Source: Myxococcus sp. RHSTA-1-4
GTDB lineage: Bacteria; Myxococcota; Myxococcia; Myxococcales; Myxococcaceae
Assembly: GCF_020037125.1 (NCBI RefSeq)
Contig: NZ_JAIQDG010000003.1
Location: forward strand, 62,001-126,000
DNA: 64,000 bases
Direction: 5' to 3'
Under the pieces are notes generated by a model. The model ran no database searches. It was not told the DNA's origin and saw only the letters and a program-made list of their open reading frames with translations. The translations under genes were made by a program, and so were the position numbers. Shown piece after piece: positions 24,358 to 56,638 of this stretch; the first letter of the stretch is position 1; every line of letters starts with the position of its first letter.

Positions 24358-26385
24358 CTACGGTCCGCAGGCCGTCTCCGCGTTGCGCGCGATGTCGAGG
24401 TCCTCGGCGCGCCCGGTGTACACGCTGCTCGCGAGTGTCGTGGCCAGGCACCCGGGGAGCTTCGGATTGTCCGTGGCGATGAAGTAGGTGCCCACCCGGA
24501 CGAGTCCGCTCAGGCCCAGCTGCGTCAGCTCGGGGTTCTCCTTCACGAGCAGGCCATCCAGCTCGCGCAGGCCGCTGAAGGGAGACAGGCTCGTCAGCGC
24601 GGGGCTGCGCGTCACGTGCAGTCCTTCCAGGCGCAGCAGCCTGCCGAAGGCCGACAGGTCGGTCAGCAGCGTGTTGTCGCTGAGCTCGAGGATGCCCCCC
24701 ACGCTCACCAGGAGGGGGAACTCCATCACGGCCGTCAGCTTCGGGCTGTTGGAGATGCCGAAGTCCTTGTCCACGGACTTGAGGGACAACATCGGCCCCA
24801 CCGTCGCCAGCGAGGCGTTGCCGTTGATGATGATGGAGCCCGCGCGGGAGAGGAAGGAGGTCCCGAAGTCCTGGAGGCTGTCGTTGCCAATCACCTGGAG
24901 GGCGCCGCCAACGCTATGCAGGCTCCACAGCCCCGAGCTGCTCGGCAGCGCGTCGTTGTCGGAGATGAGGAAGTCTCCGCCGACGGTCGTCAGCACATTC
25001 AGTCCCTCGAGCGAGGTGAGCGCATCGTTGTTGAAGAGCTGTACCGTGCCGCCCACCGTGCGCAGGTGGGTGAAGGGCAGCGTTTGCAGGGTGGGATTTC
25101 CCCAGATGCTCAGGGTGCCCGAGAGCTCCTCGAGGTACGGGAACCGGTCCCCTCCCATCAGGAGCGCGTTCTCGGTCACCGTGAAGCTGCCGCGCGGGGA
25201 CACGGCGGCCAGCCCGAACAGCGTCTGGAGCTTCGGGTTGGTGCTCAGTCCCAGGTTGGTGCCCACATGGACCGCGTGCTCCGGAGCCGGGCCGGCCGGA
25301 CCGATGGTCAGCAGCTCGAGGTTGTCGTTGTAGCCCACGAACAGGGCCTCTCCCACGGAGCGCAGGCCCATCAGCTCCACGCGCGTCAGGGCGGCGTTGC
25401 TGGTGATGCTCAGCGAGCCCTCCACCGATACGAGGCCGGGGAGCACCACCTCCGTGAGCTGCGTGTTGGTGATGGTGAGCCCGCCCCGGATGTGGGAGAT
25501 GGCCCCGAGCGCCGCGAAGTCCGCCGCATCCTGCACGAGGTACGAGCCGTCATAGGTGGACGTGGGCTGGCACACGTAGGCGGTGCCGAGCACCTCGTTG
25601 CTGTCGAACACGCCGTCCCCGTTCATGTCCCTGCCGGCCTCCACCGCGATGCCGCCCATGGGGCAGCGCGTGCCCGCCGGCTCCGGCCGCTGGCGCACCC
25701 GGACCAGGGCGGGGTCCACGCAGACGCGGGTGGAGGCTCGTGCCTCCTCGTCGTCGAACACCCCGTCGCGGTCCAGGTCCAGGGCCGCGTCGACGATGGA
25801 GCTGGTCTGCTGGCAGACGAAGGGGGCCCTCGTGAGCAGGCGCACCCGCGTCAGCACCGGCGCCGGCTCCGAGCAGCCATACACCTCGCGCGTGATTTCC
25901 GCGTCCCCCAGCAGCCCGTCTCCGTTCAGGTCCTTCCCGGCGTGGGACACGACGCCGCCATTCGGGCAGTGCTCTCCCGGGGGCACCTGCCGCGTGCGCA
26001 CCAGCACGTCCGGGACGGCGGTGGCGCAGACATACTCGGTGGCCGTCACCTCGGCGTCGTCGAGCTCGCCGTCCCCATCCAGGTCCGGGCCGGTCCGCAC
26101 CGCCTGCCCGCCATGCTCGCAGTGGGCCCCCGCCGCCTCGGGCTGGCTGTACGCGAGCGCCGTGGTGCAGGCGTACTCGGTGTTCGTCACCTCGCTGTCG
26201 TCGAGCACGCCGTTCTCATCGAGGTCCAGGCCGGACAGCACCGCCTGCCCGCCATGTGGGCAGTGGGCGCCGGCGGGCTCCGGGGCCAGGCGCGTGAGCG
26301 CCGGGTGCTGCTTCACGAGCTTCTCCAGCTCGATGCCGTTGCAGCCGGCCGCCAACGCGAACACCGCCATCCAGGTCCAGCGCAT
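24358..26385 (-). CDS. DUF7151 / receptor-L-like lipoprotein, copy 3 of a tandem triplet
   Basis: 675 residues. Lipobox LAAGC (Cys 15) after a short signal peptide, so an outer-membrane or surface lipoprotein. Five DUF7151-type units of about 48 residues (AGxHCPHGGxAVxxGxDLDxDGxLDDxEVTxTEYxC) at about 30-275, acidic and likely calcium-binding. Then about 380 residues of leucine-rich, receptor-L-type beta-helix repeats (hxxhxxNxxLxxLxxhxxL). The start at 26385 has GGAGG 8 nt upstream. Last gene of the sigma/anti-sigma/caspase operon. It shares a 172-bp almost identical block with copy 2. Confidence 0.85.
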   Translation of the reverse strand: MRWTWMAVFALAAGCNGIELEKLVKQHPALTRLAPEPAGAHCPHGGQAVLSGLDLDENGVLDDSEVTNTEYACTTALAYSQPEAAGAHCEHGGQAVRTGPDLDGDGELDDAEVTATEYVCATAVPDVLVRTRQVPPGEHCPNGGVVSHAGKDLNGDGLLGDAEITREVYGCSEPAPVLTRVRLLTRAPFVCQQTSSIVDAALDLDRDGVFDDEEARASTRVCVDPALVRVRQRPEPAGTRCPMGGIAVEAGRDMNGDGVFDSNEVLGTAYVCQPTSTYDGSYLVQDAADFAALGAISHIRGGLTITNTQLTEVVLPGLVSVEGSLSITSNAALTRVELMGLRSVGEALFVGYNDNLELLTIGPAGPAPEHAVHVGTNLGLSTNPKLQTLFGLAAVSPRGSFTVTENALLMGGDRFPYLEELSGTLSIWGNPTLQTLPFTHLRTVGGTVQLFNNDALTSLEGLNVLTTVGGDFLISDNDALPSSSGLWSLHSVGGALQVIGNDSLQDFGTSFLSRAGSIIINGNASLATVGPMLSLKSVDKDFGISNSPKLTAVMEFPLLVSVGGILELSDNTLLTDLSAFGRLLRLEGLHVTRSPALTSLSPFSGLRELDGLLVKENPELTQLGLSGLVRVGTYFIATDNPKLPGCLATTLASSVYTGRAEDLDIARNAETACGP
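25994..26165. repeat. Direct repeat, copy A (172 bp)
   Basis: Identical to 28068-28239 except for four bases by eye (about 98%), while the flanks diverge much more. It encodes one DUF7151 unit and its edges. Such a sharp island of identity between paralogues points to recent gene conversion or unequal crossing-over. Confidence 0.85.
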
Positions 26386-26425
26386 GGTGCAGTTCCTCCG
26401 GGGCAGGTCGTGCCGGCCCCGTCCT

Positions 26426-28459
26426 TCAGTTGCCACAGGTGGCCGTGTCGTCATTGTCGCTGATGCGCAGCTGGGCCGGCGCGCCCGTGTAGACGGCGGC
26501 GGCGAGCCCGGTAGCGAGGCAGGTGGGCAGCTTCGTGTTGCCGGTAACGGTGAACTCATGGGGCACCCGCTCCAGCGCGGTCAGGTCGAACCGGGTGAGG
26601 TTCGCGTTGTCCAGGACGCTCAGCATCTCCACCTCCTGGAGTCCCGCCAGTTCCGCCAGGCTGCTCAGCGCGGGGCTCCGCCGCACGGACAGGCTGCTCA
26701 ACCAGCGCACCCGGGTCAGCCCTTGCAGGCTGGCCAGCAGCGGGTTGTTGTCGATGGACACCTGGGCGACCTGCTGGAGGCTGCCCAGGTTGCGCACGCC
26801 GAGCAGCTTCGGGTGGGAGTCGACCACGAGCCGGGAGCCGATGCTCTGGAGGGAGGGCAGGTCTCCCACCCACTCCAGCTCGGCGTTGAAGCCGAAGGAG
26901 AGGCCGCCCACGTGGCTGAGCTCCGGCAGTCCTTCGGTGGTCCGCAGCGCGTCGTTGCCGGCGACGGTGAGCCAGCTGTTGATGGTCTCGAGCAGGGGCA
27001 TGCCCGACAGGCCTTGCAGCGCGTCGTTGTTGGAGATGGAGAAGGCCCCGCCCACGGACCTCAGGCTCGGCAGCGACAGGCTCCGCAGCGCGGTGTTGTC
27101 GTCGACGTACACGCTGTAGCCCACATGGCGGAGGACCGGGAAGGGGAGGGCGCCCAGCGCGTCATTGCCCGAGACGTAGAGGACTCCCGTGAGGGCCTTC
27201 ACGTTGTCGAAGCCCGTCTGGCCCGGGATATACTCGAGCGCGCCGTTCTCCCGCAGGTAGAGGCTCTGCCGGGGGGACACGCGGCTCAGCCCGCTCAGGC
27301 TCTTCAGCTTGGGGTTGGAGATCAGCCACAGGTCCAGCTCCACCAACAGTTCCTCACCCTGGGCACCGCCAAGCACCAGGGTCTCCAGGTTGGCGTTGGA
27401 CTCGACGGAGAGGTCGTACTTCACGAAGCGCAGGCCGGGCAGTTCCACGCGCGTCAGGGCCGCGTTGCCGTAGATGGTGAGCTGCCCCTCCACCGCCATG
27501 AGGCCGGGGAGGACCACTTCGGTCAGCTCCGTGCCCATCAGGAAGAGGGAGCCGTGGATGTGGGAGATGCCCTGGAGCGCCGCGAGGTCCGCCGCGCTCC
27601 GCACCACGTAGCTTCCGTCGTACGTGTGCAGGGGCTGGCATACGAGCGCCCACGAGGAGCGCTCCTCGTTGCCCAGGTTGCCGTCGCCGTTCACGTCCAG
27701 ACCGGCCACCACCAGCGTGCCACCCGCCGGGCACCGCGTGCCGGCCGGTTCCGGGCGCAGCTCCACCCGCACCGGGTCCACCACCGACGCGCAGAGGCTC
27801 ACCCGCGCCCGGGCCTCGCCGTCATCCAGTTCGCCGTCCTGGTCCATGTCCGGGCCCGCCTCCACCGCCACCGACGCCAGACCGGGGCACTCCTGGGCCG
27901 GCTGCGGGATCGCGCTCAGGCGGGTGACCACCGTCTCCGGCTGTGTGCAGCCATACACCTCGCGGGTGACCTCGCCGTCCTCCAGCTCGCCGTTGCCGTT
28001 GGTGTCCTGCCCGGCGCGGGAGACCTGGCCGCCAAGCGGGCACTCCGCGCCGGGCGGCACCTCCCGGGTGCGCACCAGCACGTCCGGGACGGCGGTGGCG
28101 CAGACGTACTCGGTGGCCGTCACCTCGGCGTCGTCGAGCTCGCCGTCCCCATCCAGGTCCGGGCCGGTCCGCACCGCCTGCCCGCCATGCTCGCAGTGGG
28201 CTCCCGCCGTCTCGGGCTGGCTGTGCGCGAGCGCCGTGGCGCAGACGTACTCGGTGGCCGTCACTTCGCCGTCATCGAGCACGCCGTCTTCATCGAGGTC
28301 CAGGCCGGACAGGAGCGCGCTGCCGCCGTGCGGGCAGTGGGCGCCGGGCGGCTCCGGCGTCACCCGCGTGCGCGCCGGATGCTGATTCACGAGAGGCTCC
28401 AGCTCGATTCCACCGCAGCCCGCCGCCAGCGCGAGTACCGCCATCCAGGTCCAGCGCAT
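26426..28459 (-). CDS. DUF7151 / receptor-L-like lipoprotein, copy 2 of a tandem triplet
   Basis: 677 residues. Starts MRWTWMAVLALAAGCGG with the lipobox at Cys 15, almost the same leader as the neighbours. Five DUF7151 units (for example DLDGDGELDDAEVTATEYVC) are followed by leucine-rich beta-helix repeats and a Cys-containing C-terminal cap (LPTCLATGLAAAVYTGAPAQ). The architecture binds ligands at the cell surface in eukaryotic relatives of the L domain; the bacterial ligand is not known. It sits 40 bp before copy 3 and 56 bp after copy 1 on the minus strand, with no terminator between. Confidence 0.85.
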   Translation of the reverse strand: MRWTWMAVLALAAGCGGIELEPLVNQHPARTRVTPEPPGAHCPHGGSALLSGLDLDEDGVLDDGEVTATEYVCATALAHSQPETAGAHCEHGGQAVRTGPDLDGDGELDDAEVTATEYVCATAVPDVLVRTREVPPGAECPLGGQVSRAGQDTNGNGELEDGEVTREVYGCTQPETVVTRLSAIPQPAQECPGLASVAVEAGPDMDQDGELDDGEARARVSLCASVVDPVRVELRPEPAGTRCPAGGTLVVAGLDVNGDGNLGNEERSSWALVCQPLHTYDGSYVVRSAADLAALQGISHIHGSLFLMGTELTEVVLPGLMAVEGQLTIYGNAALTRVELPGLRFVKYDLSVESNANLETLVLGGAQGEELLVELDLWLISNPKLKSLSGLSRVSPRQSLYLRENGALEYIPGQTGFDNVKALTGVLYVSGNDALGALPFPVLRHVGYSVYVDDNTALRSLSLPSLRSVGGAFSISNNDALQGLSGMPLLETINSWLTVAGNDALRTTEGLPELSHVGGLSFGFNAELEWVGDLPSLQSIGSRLVVDSHPKLLGVRNLGSLQQVAQVSIDNNPLLASLQGLTRVRWLSSLSVRRSPALSSLAELAGLQEVEMLSVLDNANLTRFDLTALERVPHEFTVTGNTKLPTCLATGLAAAVYTGAPAQLRISDNDDTATCGN
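28068..28239. repeat. Direct repeat, copy B (172 bp)
   Basis: Partner of 25994-26165 with four mismatches over 172 bp by eye. It lies in the equivalent DUF7151 unit of the neighbouring paralogue. Confidence 0.85.
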
Positions 28460-28515
28460 CCGTGCCTCTCTTCTGCCGCTCCTGAAGGGGGACGCTCGTC
28501 CCCGCCGGGAGGGGC

Positions 28516-30381
28516 TCAGTCGCAGGTGGCCGTGGAGTCGTTGCCGGTAATCTGGGCCGCGATGCCGGTGAAGGTCCTCGTCGCGAGCGCGGTCGCCTGG
28601 CACGTGGGCAGCACCGGGTTGTCCACGACGGTGAAGGTGCCGGTCACGCTCTCCAGCGCGGGCAGGTCGAGCCGCTTCAAGGTCAGATTGTATGTCACCT
28701 CCAGCCCCTCCAGCGCCCGCAGCCGGCTCAACGCTCCCAGACTCGTCAGGGAGTTGTTGCTGTCCACGTTCAGGAACCTCGCGGTCTGTAGCGTGTCGAG
28801 CCCCGTCAGGCTCGTCAGCCGCGTGTTGTTGCCCACGTGCAGCAGCTCCAGGTGCTGGAGGAAGCGGAAGTCCCCCACGGACACCAACGATGGATTGTTG
28901 TTGATGTCGAGGGCCGTGGTGATGGTCCGTAGGACGGGGAAGGGGCCCGCGTCCGTCAGCTCGGCGTTGCGGTAGACACGCAGAGAGCCCAGCCGCGCGA
29001 GCGACTGCATCCCCGCCAGGGACAGCAGGCGGTCATTGTCCTGGACGATGAGGTTGCCGCCAATGGACTCGAGCTGAGGCATCCCCGACAGGTCCATCAG
29101 CGTGTCGTTGTCTGAGATGGAGACGTCCCCGCTCACGCTGGTCAGGACGGTGCCTGTCAGGGAGGGCAGGGCGGCGTTGCGGGTGATGTCCAGGCTGCCG
29201 CCCAGACGCTCCAGCTTCGCGAATGGCAGCGCCAGCAGGCCGTCATTGTCCGAGATGAAGATGGAGCCCGTGAGCTCGACGAGGGAGTCGAACGTCCCCG
29301 GGAACCGGAGCGCGTCATTGTCCCGCAGGGTGATGCTCCCGCGCGGAACCACCGGGCTCAGGCCGGAGAGGGTGGCCAGGCTCGGGTTGGTCTCGATGAC
29401 CAGTTCCTTCTCCACCCACACTTCGTTTCCGGCACTGCCCACCGCGAGGGTCTCCAGGGCCGCGTTGAAGCCAATGCGCAGGTCCTGCTCCACGAAGCGC
29501 AGCGACGGCAGTTCCACGCGCTTCAGGTCCATGTTGCTGTCGATGAGGAGCTGGTCTTCCACCATCATCAGCGCGGGCAGGACGAGCTCCTTCAAGGGCG
29601 TGCCGACGACCTGGAGCGAGCCGCGGATGCGCGAGATGCCCTCGAGCGCCGCGAGGTCCGCCGCGCTCTTCACGACATAGTGCCCGTCATAGGTGCGCAG
29701 GGCGTTGCACACCGCCATGGTCGCGCCTACCTCGGCGTACTCGAACTCCGTGTCGCCATCGTCGTCGGCGCCGGCCTCCACGCGGATGCCGCCGCTCGGG
29801 CAGGTGACGCTGGCGGGCTCCGCGACCTGGCGTACCCGGACGAGGGCCGGCGCCACGCAGACGATGGCCATCGCCCGGCGCTCCGGGTCATCCAGCGCGC
29901 CGTTCCGGTCCAGGTCGAGGCCCGCCTCCACCAGGGTGCCTTCCAGGTGGCAGGGGCCCGGAGGCGACGGGAGCGCGCTCATGCGCGTGACGACCGCCTC
30001 CGGCTCCGTGCAGCTGTACACCTCGCGGGTGACCTCGCCGTCCTCCAGCTCGCCGTTGCCGTTCACGTCGAGCCCGGCGCGGGAGACGTGGCCACCGAGG
30101 GCGCACCGCTCCCCGGGAGGCACATACCGCGTCAGCACCAGCACGCCGGGCATGGCCGAGGCGCAGCTGTACGCGGTGCTCCGCACCTCCGTGTCGTCGA
30201 GCACGCCGTCGTCGTCGAGGTCCAGGCCCGTCAGCACCGCGCTGCCGCCGTGGGCGCAGTTGGCGCCCGCGGGCTCCGGGGTGATGCGGGTGAGCGGCTC
30301 GTGCTGCTTCAGGAGCTTGTCCAGCTCGATGCCGTCACAGCCGGCCGCCAGCGCCAGCACCGCCACCCAGGTCCATCTCAT
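28516..30381 (-). CDS. DUF7151 / receptor-L-like lipoprotein, copy 1 of a tandem triplet
   Basis: 621 residues. ATG 30381 is chosen because the conserved leader MRWTWVAVLALAAGC begins there and GAGG lies upstream; the frame also contains an ATG at 30399. It is shorter than the other copies, with four DUF7151-type units, then the receptor-L-like leucine-rich region (for example LESIGGNLIVQDNDRLLSL). It follows the caspase gene by 27 bp, so the two are surely co-transcribed. It is the most diverged copy and lacks the 172-bp identical block. Confidence 0.85.
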   Translation of the reverse strand: MRWTWVAVLALAAGCDGIELDKLLKQHEPLTRITPEPAGANCAHGGSAVLTGLDLDDDGVLDDTEVRSTAYSCASAMPGVLVLTRYVPPGERCALGGHVSRAGLDVNGNGELEDGEVTREVYSCTEPEAVVTRMSALPSPPGPCHLEGTLVEAGLDLDRNGALDDPERRAMAIVCVAPALVRVRQVAEPASVTCPSGGIRVEAGADDDGDTEFEYAEVGATMAVCNALRTYDGHYVVKSAADLAALEGISRIRGSLQVVGTPLKELVLPALMMVEDQLLIDSNMDLKRVELPSLRFVEQDLRIGFNAALETLAVGSAGNEVWVEKELVIETNPSLATLSGLSPVVPRGSITLRDNDALRFPGTFDSLVELTGSIFISDNDGLLALPFAKLERLGGSLDITRNAALPSLTGTVLTSVSGDVSISDNDTLMDLSGMPQLESIGGNLIVQDNDRLLSLAGMQSLARLGSLRVYRNAELTDAGPFPVLRTITTALDINNNPSLVSVGDFRFLQHLELLHVGNNTRLTSLTGLDTLQTARFLNVDSNNSLTSLGALSRLRALEGLEVTYNLTLKRLDLPALESVTGTFTVVDNPVLPTCQATALATRTFTGIAAQITGNDSTATCD

Positions 30382-30408
30382 GAATCCGTGCCTCATCACC
30401 CGCTTGCC

Positions 30409-32127
30409 TCAGCGCCGCAGCGCCAGCTCCACGCCGTAGGAGGGGTCCCAGTGGTTGTTTCCGTCGAGCGTGACGAGGTCCGCGGACAGCGTGGCCCCCA
30501 GCCGCAGCTTCAGCCCCGCCAGCGTTCCCGTGACTCCGGCCGCCGCGTGAGTGGTGAGCAGGGTGGAGTCGCCCATCCGCAGCGAGTCCTTCGTCAAGGC
30601 CAGCAGGCCCAGGCCCGCGCCCGCCTCCAGGAACAGCGGCGTGCGGTACAGGCCCTCCGTGCCCACCAGCCCCTGCACCGTGGCACGGTGCAGGCGGAGG
30701 CCGTCGAGCGCCTCCGCCGTCAGCGCGTAGGTGCCGCGCACGCCGTAATAGAGGAAGGGCCGCAGCTCCATCCGCAGCGCCACGCTCGGGCCGGCGGCGA
30801 TGGTGCTCAGCCCCAGCGGGGCCCGCAATGCCGTCAGGCCCCAGTCCCACTGCCGCGTCTGGGGGCCGCGCAGCATCAGGTGCGGCAGCGTGCCTCCTTC
30901 CGCGGGCGGGAAGGCCCGGGCCAGGTCCACCGGCACCAGGCCGGCGGCGGCCACGTATTGCTCGTAGTAGTGCTTGTCCAGCGGCACCGCGAACAGGCCG
31001 CGCCGCAGCGCCTCCTCCGCGGGGCCGCGCTCCTGCATCTCGCGCGAGGCCATCCGCGGCACCCCGGTGGACAGCTCCGCGAGGGTGATGCGCGCCTCGG
31101 CGGTGGGGGTGCGCACCCAGTACACGTCGCGCTCGGGCAGGCGCAGCAGCACGTACTGGTCCTCCGAGCGCCGCACGTCCGCCAGGCGCCGGCCGTCCGC
31201 GTCCTCCACGGAGATGCGCGAGTGCTCGAAGCCGGAGGGCAGGGTGAGGCTGGGGCCCCGTGGGGCGGGGCCCACCAGCGGGCGCCGGGGCTCGCGGGTG
31301 GGTGCGAAGGCGTGGAGGGTCAGCCGCGCGGGCAGGCCCTTCACACCCTTGAGCGACGCGGAGACGAAGGCCCCCAGCTCGCTGTACTCCACCCGCCCGT
31401 CGCCGTTGATGTCCGCCGCGCCCATGAGGCCCGAGCGCGCCACGTGGCTGAACACGCCGGCGCGGATGCGGGACCACTCGTGCGTCTCGCCGTCGTCGCT
31501 CTCCGCGAAGACGGCGCCCACGGTGGGCCGGGTGGCGAGCTGCTCGCGCGCGAGCATGCCGCGCAGCTCCGCCAGCACCGCCGCGTCCGTCTGACCGCCG
31601 CGGCTGCCCACCACGCCGGAGGCGCGGCACGCATCCACGATGACGTGCGTGAAGTCCGCGGCGAGCGGGTCCACCACGTCCGAGTAGAGGGTCGCCTTGT
31701 CCAGCCGGCCGCCCGCGAGGGTGAAGTACGCGCGCCCGGCCTCGTCCGTGTTGCCGTGGCCCACATAGATGACGAGCACGTCCGTCTGACGTCCCAGCTC
31801 GTCGTCGGCGAGGCTGGCCGCGCGCAGCCGGGCCACCTCGCGCTTCACCTCGTCCGGCGTGGGCGGGCGCGCGCCCGCGAGCACGGGCCGACTCCCGGCC
31901 CGAGTCGCCTCGTCCGGGTCCACCAGCAGCGTCGTCTCCACGCCCAGCCGCTGGAGCGTCTCCGCCCACAGCACGCCGTCGTCATCCGCGAAGCGCAGGT
32001 CCGGGAGGGAGGGGTCGTCGCTCCCGTTGTGGGCGATGACCAGGGCGCGGCGCACCACCTCTTCCGCCGAGGCGCTGCTTCCGGAGAGCAGCGCGAAGGC
32101 CCCGAAGAGCAGTCCCAGCTTTTTCAT
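30409..32127 (-). CDS. Secreted caspase-family (C14) protease with C-terminal beta-rich domain
   Basis: 572 residues. Signal peptide (residues 1-21, ending SSASA). The caspase domain covers about 25-235 with catalytic His124 in YVGHGN and Cys167 in VDACRAS; the fold is complete. After it a calcium-loop-like DINGDGRVEYSE (near 218) and a beta-rich region (about 440-572) with alternating hydrophobic residues typical of an outer-membrane barrel or autotransporter-like domain. It is predicted to act outside the cytoplasm, unlike most bacterial metacaspases. Its ATG overlaps the anti-sigma stop by 4 bp (ATGA). Targets are not known. Confidence 0.85.
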   Translation of the reverse strand: MKKLGLLFGAFALLSGSSASAEEVVRRALVIAHNGSDDPSLPDLRFADDDGVLWAETLQRLGVETTLLVDPDEATRAGSRPVLAGARPPTPDEVKREVARLRAASLADDELGRQTDVLVIYVGHGNTDEAGRAYFTLAGGRLDKATLYSDVVDPLAADFTHVIVDACRASGVVGSRGGQTDAAVLAELRGMLAREQLATRPTVGAVFAESDDGETHEWSRIRAGVFSHVARSGLMGAADINGDGRVEYSELGAFVSASLKGVKGLPARLTLHAFAPTREPRRPLVGPAPRGPSLTLPSGFEHSRISVEDADGRRLADVRRSEDQYVLLRLPERDVYWVRTPTAEARITLAELSTGVPRMASREMQERGPAEEALRRGLFAVPLDKHYYEQYVAAAGLVPVDLARAFPPAEGGTLPHLMLRGPQTRQWDWGLTALRAPLGLSTIAAGPSVALRMELRPFLYYGVRGTYALTAEALDGLRLHRATVQGLVGTEGLYRTPLFLEAGAGLGLLALTKDSLRMGDSTLLTTHAAAGVTGTLAGLKLRLGATLSADLVTLDGNNHWDPSYGVELALRR

Positions 32128-32882
32128 GGGCCTTCCTTTACCTTGACCTCCTGCTTGAGCACCACGACTCCCCCGGTCTGCTCACCGCGCAGGGCCGCCA
32201 GTGCCACTGCCGGGTGGTCCGCGAAGGCAGCCGTGACTTCCACCACGCCCGCCTGCTGGGGCATGGGGACGGTCAGCTCCAGGGGGCCTTCCCGACCCGG
32301 GGGACCGGACAGGACGAAGGGACCTGCCGTCACCTCGGCCTTCTTCGCGCCGCGGACCTGGACGGCCACGTGTGAGTAGGGCGCGGTGCCACCGGCGGCG
32401 AAGGCCAGCATCGCGCCTGCCTGGCAGTCGTCCCCCGCGTGCAGCTCGCGCATGGGCTGGCCGGCCGCCGCGCAGAAGATGCGCAGCGCCACGCCCGGAG
32501 GGGGCGTGCCCTCGCCGCGGGACGTGAACTCACGCGTGTCCGTGGCGGGCGGAGTCAGCACCACCGCCAGGAAGACGGCGGCCACCGCGCCCGCGAGCAT
32601 CGCCAGCGAGGGCCAGCGCGCCCGCGCTTCTTCCGCGGGAGCCGCCGCCGCCAGGGCCGCCGCCAGGCCGCCCTCCGTCAGCGCCTGCCGCTCCATGGAG
32701 GAGGGCATGTCCAGGTTGCCGCCCTCGAGGGCTCGGTGGGCCCGGGCCCATTGCTCGTACCGGGCGCCACAGCGGGCGCAGCCATGAGCGTGGCGCAGCA
32801 GGCGGGCGGACTCGCTGGGGGACAGCTCTCCCAGAGACCAGCGCGTCAGACTGGCGTCGATGTGTCTCTCGTACCACCTCAT
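32124..32882 (-). CDS. Transmembrane anti-sigma factor with zinc finger
   Basis: 252 residues from ATG 32882, which overlaps the sigma stop by 4 bp. N-terminal anti-sigma zinc finger with H-x3-C-x2-C (HAHGCARCGARYEQW), an acidic linker, one membrane helix at about 98-118 (LAMLAGAVAAVFLAVVL), and a periplasmic domain of about 130 residues (beta-rich, PYSHVAVQVRG) resembling sensory or DUF4384-like domains. The layout is that of a classical ECF anti-sigma factor: it holds the sigma at the membrane until an outside signal frees it. It precedes the caspase, with a 4-bp overlap. Confidence 0.85.
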   Translation of the reverse strand: MRWYERHIDASLTRWSLGELSPSESARLLRHAHGCARCGARYEQWARAHRALEGGNLDMPSSMERQALTEGGLAAALAAAAPAEEARARWPSLAMLAGAVAAVFLAVVLTPPATDTREFTSRGEGTPPPGVALRIFCAAAGQPMRELHAGDDCQAGAMLAFAAGGTAPYSHVAVQVRGAKKAEVTAGPFVLSGPPGREGPLELTVPMPQQAGVVEVTAAFADHPAVALAALRGEQTGGVVVLKQEVKVKEGP

Positions 32883-33577
32883 GATGGCATGCTCCCTATT
32901 GCGCACAGGGCCATTGAGGCCAGGAGGACTCCCAGCTCCATCCGCCCGGGCTCGGCCGAGGCCTCCAGCCAGCCCGAGGCCTTCAGATGCTCGGTGAACT
33001 GCGTCCGCAGCCGCTTCTCGCGCACCCGGACCTCTCCTCGGGTGAGCTGGAGTTGCTCGGCGGCGGATTCCTGCGACAGCCCTTCCACGAAGCGAAGCTG
33101 TGCCAGCGCGCGTCCCTCTTCCGGCAGCGCGTCCAGGAAGCGGCGCACCAGCGCGCGCACCTCCGTGCCCAGCGCCTCCTCCTCCGGGCTGCGGCTCTCG
33201 GTGGGCAGGTGGCTCAGCTCGGGCGCGTCGTCCATGGGGACGGCTTCTCGCGCCACGCGCCCGGAGGCGCGCATCAAATCAATGGCCGTCGAGCGCGCCA
33301 CCGTCAGCAGGAAGCCCAGGTAGGGACGGACCCCGTCGTAGGCCTGCCGCATGTTGGGCCGGAAGGCGCGGACGAAGGTCTCCTGGTGCGCCGCGTCCAG
33401 GTCCAGCGCGGAGAGGGCCACCGTCCGCGTTCCACCGTCCCCACCCACCGCGAACCGGCGCGAGAGGTAACGCAACACCTCCGGCGAGTACTTCCGGTAC
33501 ACCTGCGTGAGGACGGCCGCATCCCCGCGGCGGAAGGCCTCCAAGACGGACCTGTCATTTCCTGGCAGCACGGACAC
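32879..33577 (-). CDS. ECF-type sigma-70 factor
   Basis: 232 residues. Region 2 (about 25-110) contains DAAHQETFVRAFRPNM and GFLLTVARSTAIDLMRA; region 4 (about 150-205) contains LPEEGRALAQLRFVEGLSQE and the helix-turn-helix AAEQLQLTRGEVRVREKRLR. It is the first gene of a six-gene operon: sigma, anti-sigma, caspase and three lipoproteins. Upstream on the minus strand AACCC is followed 17 nt later by CGTAT, a weak ECF-like promoter, so autoregulation is possible but not shown. The 274 bp to the next gene hold nothing else. Confidence 0.88.
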   Translation of the reverse strand: MSVLPGNDRSVLEAFRRGDAAVLTQVYRKYSPEVLRYLSRRFAVGGDGGTRTVALSALDLDAAHQETFVRAFRPNMRQAYDGVRPYLGFLLTVARSTAIDLMRASGRVAREAVPMDDAPELSHLPTESRSPEEEALGTEVRALVRRFLDALPEEGRALAQLRFVEGLSQESAAEQLQLTRGEVRVREKRLRTQFTEHLKASGWLEASAEPGRMELGVLLASMALCAIGSMPS

Positions 33578-33851
33578 TCCCGGTCCCAGTCGAGCGGCCC
33601 GGGCCCCGTGCCCTGCCGTCCGTCTCCCTCACAAAAAGAGATACGGAACGTGCTCGAAATCTGGGTTGTGCCAAGGAACGACGAACGGTTGATTTATTGA
33701 GCGATTGGGCGGAATTCGTTGCGCGGGCGGGGTTGTACGGGCGCGAACGACAGTCGCCTGGGGGGCTTCCGGCCAGCCGGAGGCAGAGTCAGGGCGGCCC
33801 CATCCTTATATAGGGGCCACTCCGGAGCGCTCCGCCCGGACCCGTGGAGCG

Positions 33852-36185
33852 TCAGAACGCCGAGCCGTTGACGCGCTTGCCGGGGGAGGCGGTGAGGGTG
33901 GAGGACAGGGTGTTGTGCAGCACCCAGCTCCCGGTGGCGCTGGCGTCCGGGCTCCGGTTGTAGGAGACGCCCTGGTAGGTGTCCTGGTAGTTGTGGCTGT
34001 CCTGCACGCTGCCGTCCGGCAGGACGAGGTACACCGTGTCCCCGCTGCCACTCACGTTGACGCCGCGGTTGAAACGCAGCCCCTGATAGACTCCGTTCAA
34101 CAGGCCATTGGAGTAGTCGGCGTTCGTGGCCCCGGCGGGGACGGCGGAAGCCCCCGAGTAGACGACGTACACCTTGCCTGGCTGCAGCACGGTGCCGGCG
34201 GGGAAGGTGTGCCGGGCGGGCCTGGCGCCGCTGTACGACTCGTCATCGTGAATCTTCCAGCCGCCCAGGTCGACGGTGGTGGTGCCCGTGTTGAGCAGCT
34301 CCACGAACATCTGGTCGTAGTCCGGGGTGCTCGTCCCCGGGGCGTTGTTCGGCTGGGGCAGGTACTCGTTGATGAAGACGGCGTGTGGGACGCGGTTCAG
34401 CACGAAGGCGCCATCGCTGGCGTCGGAGAGGGTGGCATCCAGTGCATCGCTCACCCGCACGCGCGCGCCGCTGGACGCGTCGTAGGGCACCGTCCACGCG
34501 TAGCGCCCGGAGGCGGCGGACACGGAGGCGGCCACGTCGCGCCAGGTCGTCCCGTTGTCCACGGAGTACTGCAGCCGCACCGAGTTCACGCCGTTGGAGA
34601 CCCAGGTGATGTTGTACGGTGTCCCCGCCAGCAGCGTCTCCCCGCCGTTGGGTGCGGTGAGCCGGAGGGCTCGCACGTTGCCCTGCCCGAAGTCGTAGCG
34701 GCTGAGGATGGGGTAGTGGTCGGACGTGTTGTCCTTGTAGCCGGTAATCGCCGGGCGAATCACGGTGGTGGAGTTGGCGACGTAGGCCGCGTACACCTCG
34801 TTGGTGGCGAGCTGGTGGTCGATGAAGGTGCTGCGTCCCACCGTACTGCCCACGTTCGCCAGGGACAGGGCCTGGGTGGCGAAGGTGTAGTCGGCCGTGT
34901 CGCTGACGAAGTCGCGGAAGGGCGTGTCCCGCTTCTGCTGCGTCACCGGGTCCGTCACGGTGGACACGTCCACGTCGTCATTCCAGTCGCCCACCACCAT
35001 GACCCGCTGCGTGGGGAGCTGGGTGTCCAGGTAGCTCTTGAGCCTTCCGGCCGCGGCGACGCGCTGGTTGTAGTCGTCCGTGGGGTCGGCGCTCGTCGTG
35101 GCCTTCAGGTGCACCACCAGGACGGTCATGTCCACGCTGGCGCCGCCCCGGGTGACGCGCAGGTCCACCCGCAGCGGAGGCCGCCCGGCGAAGTCATTGT
35201 CGTACTGGGTGAGGACGACGTCCGCCCCGAGCACCCGCACCACGTCCGACTTGAAGAGCACGCCCAGCTTCTGCTCGTTGGTTCGGTAGTAGCTCGCGCC
35301 CGAGGGCACGCGCGTGGCGTCGTCCGCGAGGAAGCCGTCGTAGCCGGGCAGCTGCGCCTTCAGCTCGTTGAACTGCGACGTGCTGACGATTTCCGCCAGG
35401 CCCCAGATGTCCGCGCCCGCGTCGGCGATGACGGCCTGGGCGTTGGCGAGCTGCAGCGGCTCGTCGCTCGGCCCGTAGGTGGTGTCCCCGAACCACTCGA
35501 TGTTCCAGTTGGCCACCGACACCGGGAAGGTGCCCGTCGGGAGCGGGCCGCCGTCTGGCTGCCCCCCGTCTGGCTGCCCCCCGGAGTTGCTCACCCCCAG
35601 CGACAGCCGCGCCTCGGCCGTCGCCCCGCTGGCGTCCTGCACGCGCAGGGTGAACGAATAGATGCCGGCCGCCTGTGGGACGCCGCTCAGCACTCCGTCC
35701 TGGCCGAGGCTCAGTCCCAGGGGCAGCGAGCCGTCCGCCGATGACCAGCGCAGCGGCGGGTGGCCACCGCTGGCGACGAAGGTGTGCAGGTAGTTGCCGC
35801 CCACGGTGGCGCTGGGCATGGCGGCGCCCGACACCGCGAGCGCGGGCCATACCTTCAGCCCGTAGGTGCGGACGTCCTCGTGGCCCTCCGCGTCCTGCAC
35901 GCCCACGGTGAGGGTGAACTCGCCGTCCTCGCTGGCCGGGCCCGTCAGCTTCCCCTCCGCCGTAAGGAAGGAGAAGCCCGGCGGCGGCGCGCCCATGAAC
36001 GAGTAGCGCAGCGGCGGGGTGCCGCCGGTGGCCGTCAGCACGGCCTCGTAGGCGGCTCCCACCGTGGTGGCGGGCAGTTCAATGGCGGGAAGCCTGGGAC
36101 CTTCCGACGGGTCTCCACGACCTTCGGAACAGGCACTCAGCAGGACGAGGACGGCGAGCGTCCCGGCCACTCGGGCGGACAACAT
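33852..36185 (-). CDS. Lipoprotein nuclease/phosphatase: two Ig domains, EEP domain, lamin-tail domain
   Basis: 777 residues. Lipobox LSAC (Cys 19), two He_PIG-type Ig domains at about 30-200, a short repeated GGQPDGG linker, an endonuclease/exonuclease/phosphatase domain at about 215-500 (NIEWFGD, LAEIVSTSQF, HLKATTSADP, GDWNDDV, SDHYPIL), an Ig-like stretch, and a lamin-tail domain at about 620-730 (VFINEYLPQP, MFVELLNTG). This is the pattern of secreted surface nucleases that may digest extracellular DNA. GGAG lies 9 nt before the ATG. Confidence 0.88.
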   Translation of the reverse strand: MLSARVAGTLAVLVLLSACSEGRGDPSEGPRLPAIELPATTVGAAYEAVLTATGGTPPLRYSFMGAPPPGFSFLTAEGKLTGPASEDGEFTLTVGVQDAEGHEDVRTYGLKVWPALAVSGAAMPSATVGGNYLHTFVASGGHPPLRWSSADGSLPLGLSLGQDGVLSGVPQAAGIYSFTLRVQDASGATAEARLSLGVSNSGGQPDGGQPDGGPLPTGTFPVSVANWNIEWFGDTTYGPSDEPLQLANAQAVIADAGADIWGLAEIVSTSQFNELKAQLPGYDGFLADDATRVPSGASYYRTNEQKLGVLFKSDVVRVLGADVVLTQYDNDFAGRPPLRVDLRVTRGGASVDMTVLVVHLKATTSADPTDDYNQRVAAAGRLKSYLDTQLPTQRVMVVGDWNDDVDVSTVTDPVTQQKRDTPFRDFVSDTADYTFATQALSLANVGSTVGRSTFIDHQLATNEVYAAYVANSTTVIRPAITGYKDNTSDHYPILSRYDFGQGNVRALRLTAPNGGETLLAGTPYNITWVSNGVNSVRLQYSVDNGTTWRDVAASVSAASGRYAWTVPYDASSGARVRVSDALDATLSDASDGAFVLNRVPHAVFINEYLPQPNNAPGTSTPDYDQMFVELLNTGTTTVDLGGWKIHDDESYSGARPARHTFPAGTVLQPGKVYVVYSGASAVPAGATNADYSNGLLNGVYQGLRFNRGVNVSGSGDTVYLVLPDGSVQDSHNYQDTYQGVSYNRSPDASATGSWVLHNTLSSTLTASPGKRVNGSAF

Positions 36186-55777: not shown

Positions 55778-56638
55778 ATGGCGCAGGGATATTCGTTGAA
55801 CATCGGTCTGAACTCGGTGGACCCGGTCCACTACGCGGGATGGGACGGAGCGCTCCTGGCCTGCGAGGCGGACGCGGAGGACATGGAGCTCATCGCCCGC
55901 GCGCAGAACTACTCGGCGGTGCGCAAGGTGCTGACGAAGGAGGCGACACGCGCCCGGGTGCTGAAGGAGATGGACGAGGCGGCCCGGGTGCTGCAGCCCG
56001 GCGACCTCTTCCTGCTGACGTACTCGGGGCACGGCGGCCAGGTCCCCGACAAGAACAACGACGAGTCGGACGCCGAGGACGAGACGTGGGTGCTCTATGA
56101 CGGGCAGCTCATCGACGACGAAATCTATGGCGCGCTGGCGAAGCTGCGGCAGGGCGTGCGCGTGCTGATGTTCTCCGACAGTTGTCACAGCGGCACCGTG
56201 AGCAAGCTGGCCTACGCGGCGCTGCGCAACAGCGGCAGCCTGGGGATGCTGGCGGAGGAGGTGCAGGGCACGGAGGGCGCGGAGCAGCGCTTCAGGAACA
56301 TGCCGCTGCCCATTGCCCTGCGCACCTACCGCAACAACAAGGCCATGTACGACGCCGTCATGGACGCGCTGCCGAAGGAGGACCCGAAAGCGACGATGAA
56401 GGCGACGGTGCTCCTCATCTCCGGCTGCCAGGACAACCAGCTCTCCAGCGACGGCACCTTCAACGGCCTGTTCACCGCCAACCTGCTGCGCGTCTACAAC
56501 GGCGGCAAGTTCCGCGGCAGCCACCGCACCTTCCACCACCGCATCGGCCGCCGCATGCCGCCGCTGCAGTCGCCCAACTACTCCGTCGTCGGCGTCCCCA
56601 GCCGCGAGTTCGAGCGCCAGACGCCCTTCAAGGTCTGA
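55778..56638 (+). CDS. Cytosolic metacaspase-like C14 protease
   Basis: 286 residues. A single caspase domain with catalytic His85 in YSGHGGQVPD and Cys136 in SDSCHSGT, both surrounded by canonical residues, and an acidic basket (NNDESDAEDETW) of the kind that binds Arg or Lys at P1 in metacaspases. No signal peptide, so it acts in the cytosol, unlike the secreted caspase at 30409. GGAGGAG precedes the ATG. It follows the cyclase gene and could respond to its signal (inference). Confidence 0.88.
   Translation: MAQGYSLNIGLNSVDPVHYAGWDGALLACEADAEDMELIARAQNYSAVRKVLTKEATRARVLKEMDEAARVLQPGDLFLLTYSGHGGQVPDKNNDESDAEDETWVLYDGQLIDDEIYGALAKLRQGVRVLMFSDSCHSGTVSKLAYAALRNSGSLGMLAEEVQGTEGAEQRFRNMPLPIALRTYRNNKAMYDAVMDALPKEDPKATMKATVLLISGCQDNQLSSDGTFNGLFTANLLRVYNGGKFRGSHRTFHHRIGRRMPPLQSPNYSVVGVPSREFERQTPFKV

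Follow-up and report, generated by a model that had tools for sequence, protein, structure and literature searches.

A conserved sigma/anti-sigma/caspase operon of Myxococcus and its relatives as a candidate envelope-signalling circuit

What might a caspase homolog do when it is encoded between a sigma/anti-sigma pair and a row of surface lipoproteins? The question is raised by a locus of Myxococcus sp. RHSTA-1-4, a soil-dwelling member of the predatory Myxococcus bacteria. The locus lies in a stretch of 64,000 nucleotides that was analysed as a whole (the window; contig NZ_JAIQDG010000003.1, positions 62,001 to 126,000) and belongs to a genome of 11.24 Mb, to which Pyxidicoccus species are the nearest named relatives. 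Six genes stand in one row on the minus strand: an extracytoplasmic function (ECF)-like sigma-70 factor (32879..33577; 232 aa, GTG start), a membrane anti-sigma factor (32124..32882 from its ATG, 252 aa; a longer GTG frame begins at 32906), a caspase-fold protein of 572 aa (30409..32127), and three lipoproteins (28516..30381, 26426..28459 and 24358..26385, numbered 1 to 3). The coordinates bear out the close packing described in an earlier, sequence-only reading of this DNA, with 4-bp overlaps at the sigma/anti-sigma and anti-sigma/caspase junctions and gaps of 27, 56 and 40 bp between caspase and lipoprotein 1, lipoproteins 1 and 2, and lipoproteins 2 and 3. As an answer we tentatively propose, with a little less than an even chance of being right, that the operon is an autoregulated envelope-signalling circuit, in which the caspase cuts the anti-sigma factor after residue R122 and thereby frees the sigma factor.

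Conservation of the arrangement was examined in loci of related genomes. The caspase was matched in 92 of the 96 genomes of the family. From 49 other genomes with a full-length match (60-89% identity) 43 loci were fetched, making 44 orthologous loci with the window; ten paralogs near 48% caspase identity and seven distant loci were fetched in addition, and one genome with the caspase split over contigs (G074) was left out. M. xanthus strain AM003 has one of the orthologous loci (L098). The anti-sigma gene was present in all 44 orthologous loci and the sigma gene in 43, the exception (L065) being cut by a contig end; the corresponding counts for the paralogs were 10/10 and 9/10, the sigma factor being undetected in L086. 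Beyond these, 21 of 25 further loci (L117-L141) have a sigma gene close to the caspase, including 14 of the 18 from records of metagenome-assembled genomes (L124-L141), labelled Archangium, Kofleriaceae, Sandaracinaceae, Myxococcales, Deltaproteobacteria or proteobacterium; L133 starts at the caspase, and L128 and the weak matches L140 and L141 show no sigma gene.

What follows the caspase is more variable. Lipoproteins combining DUF7151 with a leucine-rich repeat (LRR) domain occur 3' of it, in one to four copies, in 28/28 loci of Myxococcus, Pyxidicoccus and Citreicoccus and in none of the 16 others. Nine of those 16 (six of the ten from the Corallococcus genus group, Hyalangium, and two of the Archangium group) have next to the caspase a lipoprotein that we call propeller-like from a reading of its repeats, Pfam giving just a weak BNR match; three have an FN3/FG-GAP lipoprotein, and in the remaining four, all of the Corallococcus group, no lipoprotein was detected after the caspase. 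The caspase is thus followed in 40 of the 44 orthologous loci by a lipoprotein, and these lipoproteins fall into three unrelated architectures. Among the paralogs, L086 has a beta-helix lipoprotein next to the caspase and L078-L085 have none of the lipoprotein kinds searched for, those inspected carrying instead a putative desaturase-like protein. The core of sigma factor, anti-sigma factor and caspase is conserved through the family, and the LRR lipoproteins are found only in the Myxococcus-Citreicoccus group. Conservation of the six-gene order in relatives, which the sequence-only reading had set as its own check, accordingly holds throughout for the first three genes, and for all six only in Myxococcus, Pyxidicoccus and Citreicoccus.

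The second gene of this core carries the feature on which our proposal turns. An HxxxCxxC signature (H31, C35, C38), a single membrane helix at about residues 91-109 followed by a periplasmic domain, and the overlap with the sigma gene point to a cognate membrane anti-sigma factor. The zinc finger formerly assigned to it stands as regards these residues; the zf-HC2 profile itself reaches 19.4 bits, under its Pfam cut-off of 22.2. A Pfam search with the periplasmic domain found no family, and DUF4384, considered as a candidate, was not confirmed. A Cys pair in this domain, present in 13 of 14 aligned sequences (L138 is without it), is a possible redox-sensing or structural disulfide.

Just beyond the helix, in a linker of variable length, lies a conserved island, mostly of the form E-[FWL]-x-[ASVP]-R-G, which in the window reads F119-T-S-R122-G123 (32514..32528) and is a putative caspase site, with cleavage between Arg (P1) and Gly (P1'). 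The pattern [FWLVYIM]xxRG was recovered from 54/54 orthologous and paralogous loci, none being dropped, with one Thr at P2 and one Ile at P4; in three of these loci the Cys landmark did not delimit the position of the motif. In a wider set, comprising the 75 of about 100 loci that gave a parsable anti-sigma factor (some contigs having been fetched twice), 73 had the motif, the misses being L090, read in the wrong frame, and one that keeps the Arg. Twenty representatives less than 70% identical were compared with a pattern that preset a hydrophobic P4, a basic P1 and Gly at P1' and left P2 and the choice of Arg or Lys free: P4 was Phe in 8, Trp in 6, Leu in 5 and Val in 1, P2 was Ala in 9, Val in 4, Pro in 4 and Ser in 3, and P1 Arg and P1' Gly occurred in all 20 (L082 was counted with VEPRG, the 54-locus test pointing to IAPRG as its site). 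In the flanks, aligned on a pattern with Arg preset, the majority residue accounts for 14-43% at most positions, with P5 Glu (67%) and P3' Gly (57%) standing out; about 9-20 residues separate helix and motif and 13-24 separate Arg and Cys, the linker being Pro-rich in Corallococcus. Eight divergently arranged loci were examined, two of them the same contigs as two others; the Arg is kept in all six distinct ones and the exact motif in four.

As a control, 60 of 101 zf-HC2 matches were sampled (the best 30 of 34 from the genome itself and the best 30 of 67 from three others), of which 40 could be parsed, 4 linked to a caspase and 36 not; linkage was judged by eye, and the linked locus L212 was dropped. 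The strict motif occurred in just 1 of the 36 proteins not beside a caspase. Conversely, inspection by eye placed a caspase match no more than 6 kb from every anti-sigma match extending to at least residue 165. Among the six proteins of the operon [FWL]x[ASPV]RG occurs once, in the anti-sigma factor, and its rate in long open reading frames of the window is 0.49 per 1000 aa. As judged from these sequences, the motif is tied to the caspase neighbourhood. Other caspase-linked anti-sigma factors carry FGVKG or, in the case of a distant caspase of 36% identity elsewhere in this genome (L092, contig C42), FTARG; the next gene after that caspase encodes a protein sharing 43% identity with the FN3/FG-GAP lipoprotein behind an Archangium-group orthologue. 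A second lineage of caspase-linked anti-sigma factors (L253-L255, L261, L262 and L216) has R-[LIM]-K-G in place of [FWL]xxRG, perhaps reflecting another protease preference.

In the caspase itself Peptidase_C14 is matched at 25 bits (Pfam cut-off 21.4), and, as had been read from the sequence alone, His124 (GHG) and Cys167 (DAC) are intact; together with D165 they are invariant in 13/13 and in 32/32 aligned sequences, the larger set having been fetched partly with a pattern containing DAC. A further dyad count, on frames selected with a pattern that includes GH and D[AS]C, is set aside. In an AlphaFold model built from 32 sequences (pLDDT 81, pTM 0.66), residues 23-291 (31255..32061) adopt a predicted caspase fold that VIA-align superimposes on Arabidopsis metacaspase 4 (Z 19.9, rmsd 5.3, 232 residues aligned) and legumain (Z 18.8), with GPI-transamidase chains also matching. 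A His-Cys dyad in such a fold agrees with membership among metacaspases and orthocaspases (Peptidase C14), and the invariant D165, taken with the anti-sigma motif, hints at cleavage after Arg or Lys; orthocaspases are described as cleaving after basic residues (PMC6426788; this and the other articles cited were consulted in part). Within the domain, residues 239-250 (31378..31413) form an EF-hand-like loop, DINGDGRVEYSE, recognised by Pfam EF-hand matches below the cut-off and by D239, N241, D243 and E250, invariant in the same 13/13 and 32/32 sequences; one of the two patterns used to fetch the larger set covers D239-N241.

Beyond the catalytic domain the model shows a beta domain near residues 270-350 and eight long strands at 425-571. 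This C-terminal region (residues 419-572; 30412..30873) is a predicted 8-stranded outer-membrane beta-barrel: its strands are amphipathic and antiparallel, the alternation being equalled by 2 of 1000 shuffles, mean pLDDT is 72-94 per 10-residue block, VIA-align matches the Legionella porin 9nh2 (Z 17.7, rmsd 2.4, 151 aligned) and NspA 1p4t (Z 17.3, rmsd 3.0, 148 aligned), and Foldseek returns OmpA, Ail, NspA, OprF and OmpX. It would thus resemble the OmpA, NspA and OmpX barrels, with the difference that a caspase is attached N-terminally. Known 8-stranded outer-membrane barrels have both ends in the periplasm, so that the catalytic domain should face, and most likely sits in, that compartment. 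The export proposed earlier agrees with a signal peptide recognised by eye; the exported caspase is probably not free, being tethered in the outer membrane by the modelled barrel. Alignments with the distant homologues L088-L094 end at query residues 400-421, and these proteins therefore seem to be without a barrel.

The sigma factor scores 31.4 bits with Pfam Sigma70_r4, over the cut-off, 18.7 bits with Sigma70_r2, below the cut-off of 24, and 71.2 bits with NCBIfam sigma70-ECF (cut-off 42.9); having regions 2 and 4 only, it is ECF-like, and its identity across orthologous loci is 66-98%. Upstream of it, in DNA of which much is otherwise diverged, lies a conserved promoter-like element of ECF type, ACAACC-N18-CGTAT (33641..33669, minus strand). 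The form RACC-N18-CGTA precedes the sigma gene in 42 of 43 orthologous loci, ending 20-70 nt 5' of the start (L072 has AGCC in place of RACC), against a background of 94 in 8600 random 160-nt windows from the same loci, and this fits a self-activated ECF promoter. No intrinsic-terminator-like site was found within the operon, the average for shuffled sequence being 1.6. A single sigma-controlled operon is plausible on these grounds. The longer form ACRACC-N18-CGTAT has 8 matches in the genome itself, where a reversed control has none; in 12 genomes taken together the form has 87 and the control 16. It catches the sigma promoter in 8 of these 12, the other four having GCRACC. A regulon was considered and is not claimed, because the genes behind 20 fetched matches are diverse and ECF promoters resemble one another. 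A similar promoter-like element, ACGACCAGGAATG...CGTAT, stands before related proteins of 625-669 aa in three genomes (L178, L179 and L185), a possible shared target of the sigma factor.

The circuit that we propose would run as follows. The anti-sigma factor would keep the sigma factor at the inner membrane, and the caspase, after export, would be anchored in the outer membrane through its barrel. On activation, perhaps by calcium at the EF-hand-like loop, the caspase would cut the anti-sigma factor after the conserved Arg, some 9-20 residues beyond the inner membrane. Additional proteolytic steps would free the sigma factor, which would transcribe its own operon and so yield more caspase, more anti-sigma factor and more of the stalked LRR lipoproteins, the last perhaps binding a surface ligand. 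Negative feedback would retain the cut and reverse its sign. Because the anti-sigma factor carries the motif, the view of the caspase as an output only, taken in the sequence-only reading, is here revised to one in which it may also be a regulator.

A membrane anti-sigma factor from which a proposed periplasmic cut frees the sigma factor recalls RseA/RpoE with DegS and RseP (PMC10028731), the difference being that the site-1 protease would here be an outer-membrane caspase of the same operon. For ECF54 factors, which have no anti-sigma factor, control by proteases has been proposed (PMC8999054). In the Craspase model Csx30, an inhibitor of a sigma factor, is the substrate of the caspase-like Csx29 (PMC10028731), and Craspase/CASP-sigma is likewise a caspase-like protease paired with a sigma inhibitor, whose cutting is proposed to relieve inhibition; Csx29, however, is an RNA-activated, CRISPR-linked TPR-CHAT protease, and no export, barrel or membrane anti-sigma factor of the zf-HC2 kind is described in the parts of that article consulted. 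The likeness is drawn as one of functional analogues only. A further parallel is the paracaspase MALT1, the first Foldseek match to the caspase model, whose S1 pocket takes Arg only, whose S2 takes Ser, Ala or Pro, and whose P1' is limited to Gly (PMC6207715), a preference that resembles the anti-sigma motif (see also PMC4713714 and PMC5978004); it differs in belonging to the immune system of animals and in having death and Ig domains. The operon may, by extension, be a myxobacterial counterpart of paracaspase signalling, in which a caspase tethered in the outer membrane is specialised for cutting its own anti-sigma factor, at [FWL]-x-[ASVP]-R|G, a site similar to the sequence that MALT1 recognises, in a module that extends beyond the family and has exchangeable receptor lipoproteins; we regard this as somewhat less likely than not. 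Should cleavage occur at the motif, a natural substrate would be known for a conserved bacterial caspase, together with a mechanism, regulated proteolysis of an anti-sigma factor from the outer membrane, and its own promoter would provide a readout. The caspase would then act in signalling rather than death, a use shared with animal MALT1 and the CRISPR-linked Csx29.

Several observations weigh against this proposal. The distance from an outer-membrane anchor to a site at the inner membrane is its weakest point; a partly disordered stretch near residues 352-421 might let the caspase reach that far. The motif was defined after the alignment had been viewed, the 36 control proteins include many that are large or kinase-like and whose role as anti-sigma factors is unproven, and among the four caspase-adjacent zf-HC2 proteins of the control the strict motif occurs in two and the [RK]G form in three. 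No Gly stands directly behind the Arg in L127, L129 and L090. The whole-chain superposition on MALT1 is poor, and MALT1 is absent among the 50 matches listed by VIA-align, in which metacaspase 4 and legumain rank at the top. One broken caspase copy (L252) retains an ARG motif next door, a case that does not decide, since its anti-sigma factor too looks frame-shifted. Finally, motif and periplasmic domain always co-occur where examined, so that their effects are inseparable, and ERWKG, NRLKG, NR[LI]KG and TRMKG in other caspase-linked anti-sigma factors present the basic-Gly pair without a hydrophobic P4. The pair may, for that reason, have a structural role where the periplasmic domain begins; the caspase would then be an output that remodels the envelope, a general site-1 protease releasing the sigma factor. 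We think this explanation unlikely, although a serious one, in that the island lies in many loci within a linker variable in length on both sides, and P2, P1 and P1' are jointly restricted.

Legumain, PIG-K and gingipain-like relatives process proteins, and the caspase could similarly mature or shed the surface lipoproteins encoded with it in the operon. The near-constant presence of a lipoprotein behind it, whatever the architecture, and the fold matches to legumain and GPI-transamidase chains favour such a role; yet the four Corallococcus-group loci (of ten) without a detected lipoprotein keep both caspase and motif, the paralogs L078-L085 are followed by none of the kinds searched for, and lipoproteins 1-3 contain no [FWL]x[ASPV]RG, leaving this account improbable in our view. 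Contact-dependent killing and kin or prey recognition, raised in the sequence-only reading, would cast the caspase as a weapon or as an effector of death. In favour, LRR ectodomains serve in recognition, and the lipoproteins are 48-66% identical to their positional counterparts of near species, as against 83-89% for the caspase in its five closest relatives; nothing was otherwise found in support. None of the six proteins matched a PADLOC family at E values up to 0.1, no toxin/immunity pair was seen in the operon, the caspase is conserved and predicted to be membrane-tethered, and the core persists in other genera without LRR lipoproteins. We consider these roles very improbable.

The proposal that the caspase acts on its own anti-sigma factor extends a type of operon that is already known. 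In 2012, sigma-70 factors were reported in four metacaspase operons of M. xanthus DK1622, accounting for 4/5 of its metacaspases, and sigma-70/metacaspase operons also in Anaeromyxobacter, Haliangium, Sorangium, Ralstonia and Fibrobacter (PMC3501461). The likeness to the present locus is a caspase homolog and a sigma factor in one predicted operon. The same article counted OmpA domains in 14 metacaspase operons and described the roles of prokaryotic caspase homologues as largely unknown; in the parts consulted it named no anti-sigma factor, barrel-caspase fusion, receptor lipoprotein or cleavage motif, the words "anti-sigma" and "leucine" having no occurrence in its main text. Both the operon type (PMC3501461) and the action of a caspase-like protease on an inhibitor of a sigma factor (PMC10028731) are, then, already known, and the earlier remark that this was an unfamiliar system stands only for the rest: neither a fusion of caspase and outer-membrane barrel nor the anti-sigma motif nor the exchangeable lipoprotein slot was encountered in the open-access literature searched.

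The lipoproteins are as the sequence-only reading had described them, with DUF7151 and Recep_L_domain over the Pfam cut-offs in all three; DUF7151 is found in four stretches in lipoprotein 1, five in lipoprotein 2, and four, with a fifth by eye, in lipoprotein 3. An AlphaFold model of lipoprotein 3 (pLDDT 88.8) predicts a stalk, in which small beta domains recur, and, from about residue 280 to 675, an LRR-type solenoid, matched by LRR chains at Z 17-25 (RPP1 7crb, Z 24.6; LIC12759 4u09, Z 21.4; LGR4 4li1, Z 21.1). All three have D, G or N at +2; as +2 lysine mediates inner-membrane retention of lipoproteins in M. xanthus (PMC3222651), placement in the outer membrane is plausible by this rule. 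Of 20 chosen pairs one was truncated; in all 19 for which both parts were measured, conservation was lower in the LRR half than in the stalk. Full-length homologues of lipoprotein 3 in its own genome are the three operon copies only. A recent triplication was considered and rejected: a FastTree phylogeny of 73 lipoproteins (L037_1 shortened by trimming, L046_2 added by hand) groups most of them by operon position, lipoproteins 1 and 2 falling in positional clades 1 and 2, and the triplication therefore appears to predate much of the genus.

No Rfam family or tRNA gene was found in the window, and three of the operon proteins, searched against PHROGs, gave no match. The genome holds 13 Peptidase_C14 matches, and a second caspase of 286 aa is encoded within the window at 55778-56638 on the plus strand, with a DSCHSG motif and no obvious signal peptide. 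Upstream of the operon, at 33852-36185 on the minus strand, lies a gene for a putative lipoprotein of 777 aa, endonuclease/exonuclease/phosphatase-like by eye, of which a same-strand relative is found upstream in several Myxococcus and Citreicoccus loci.

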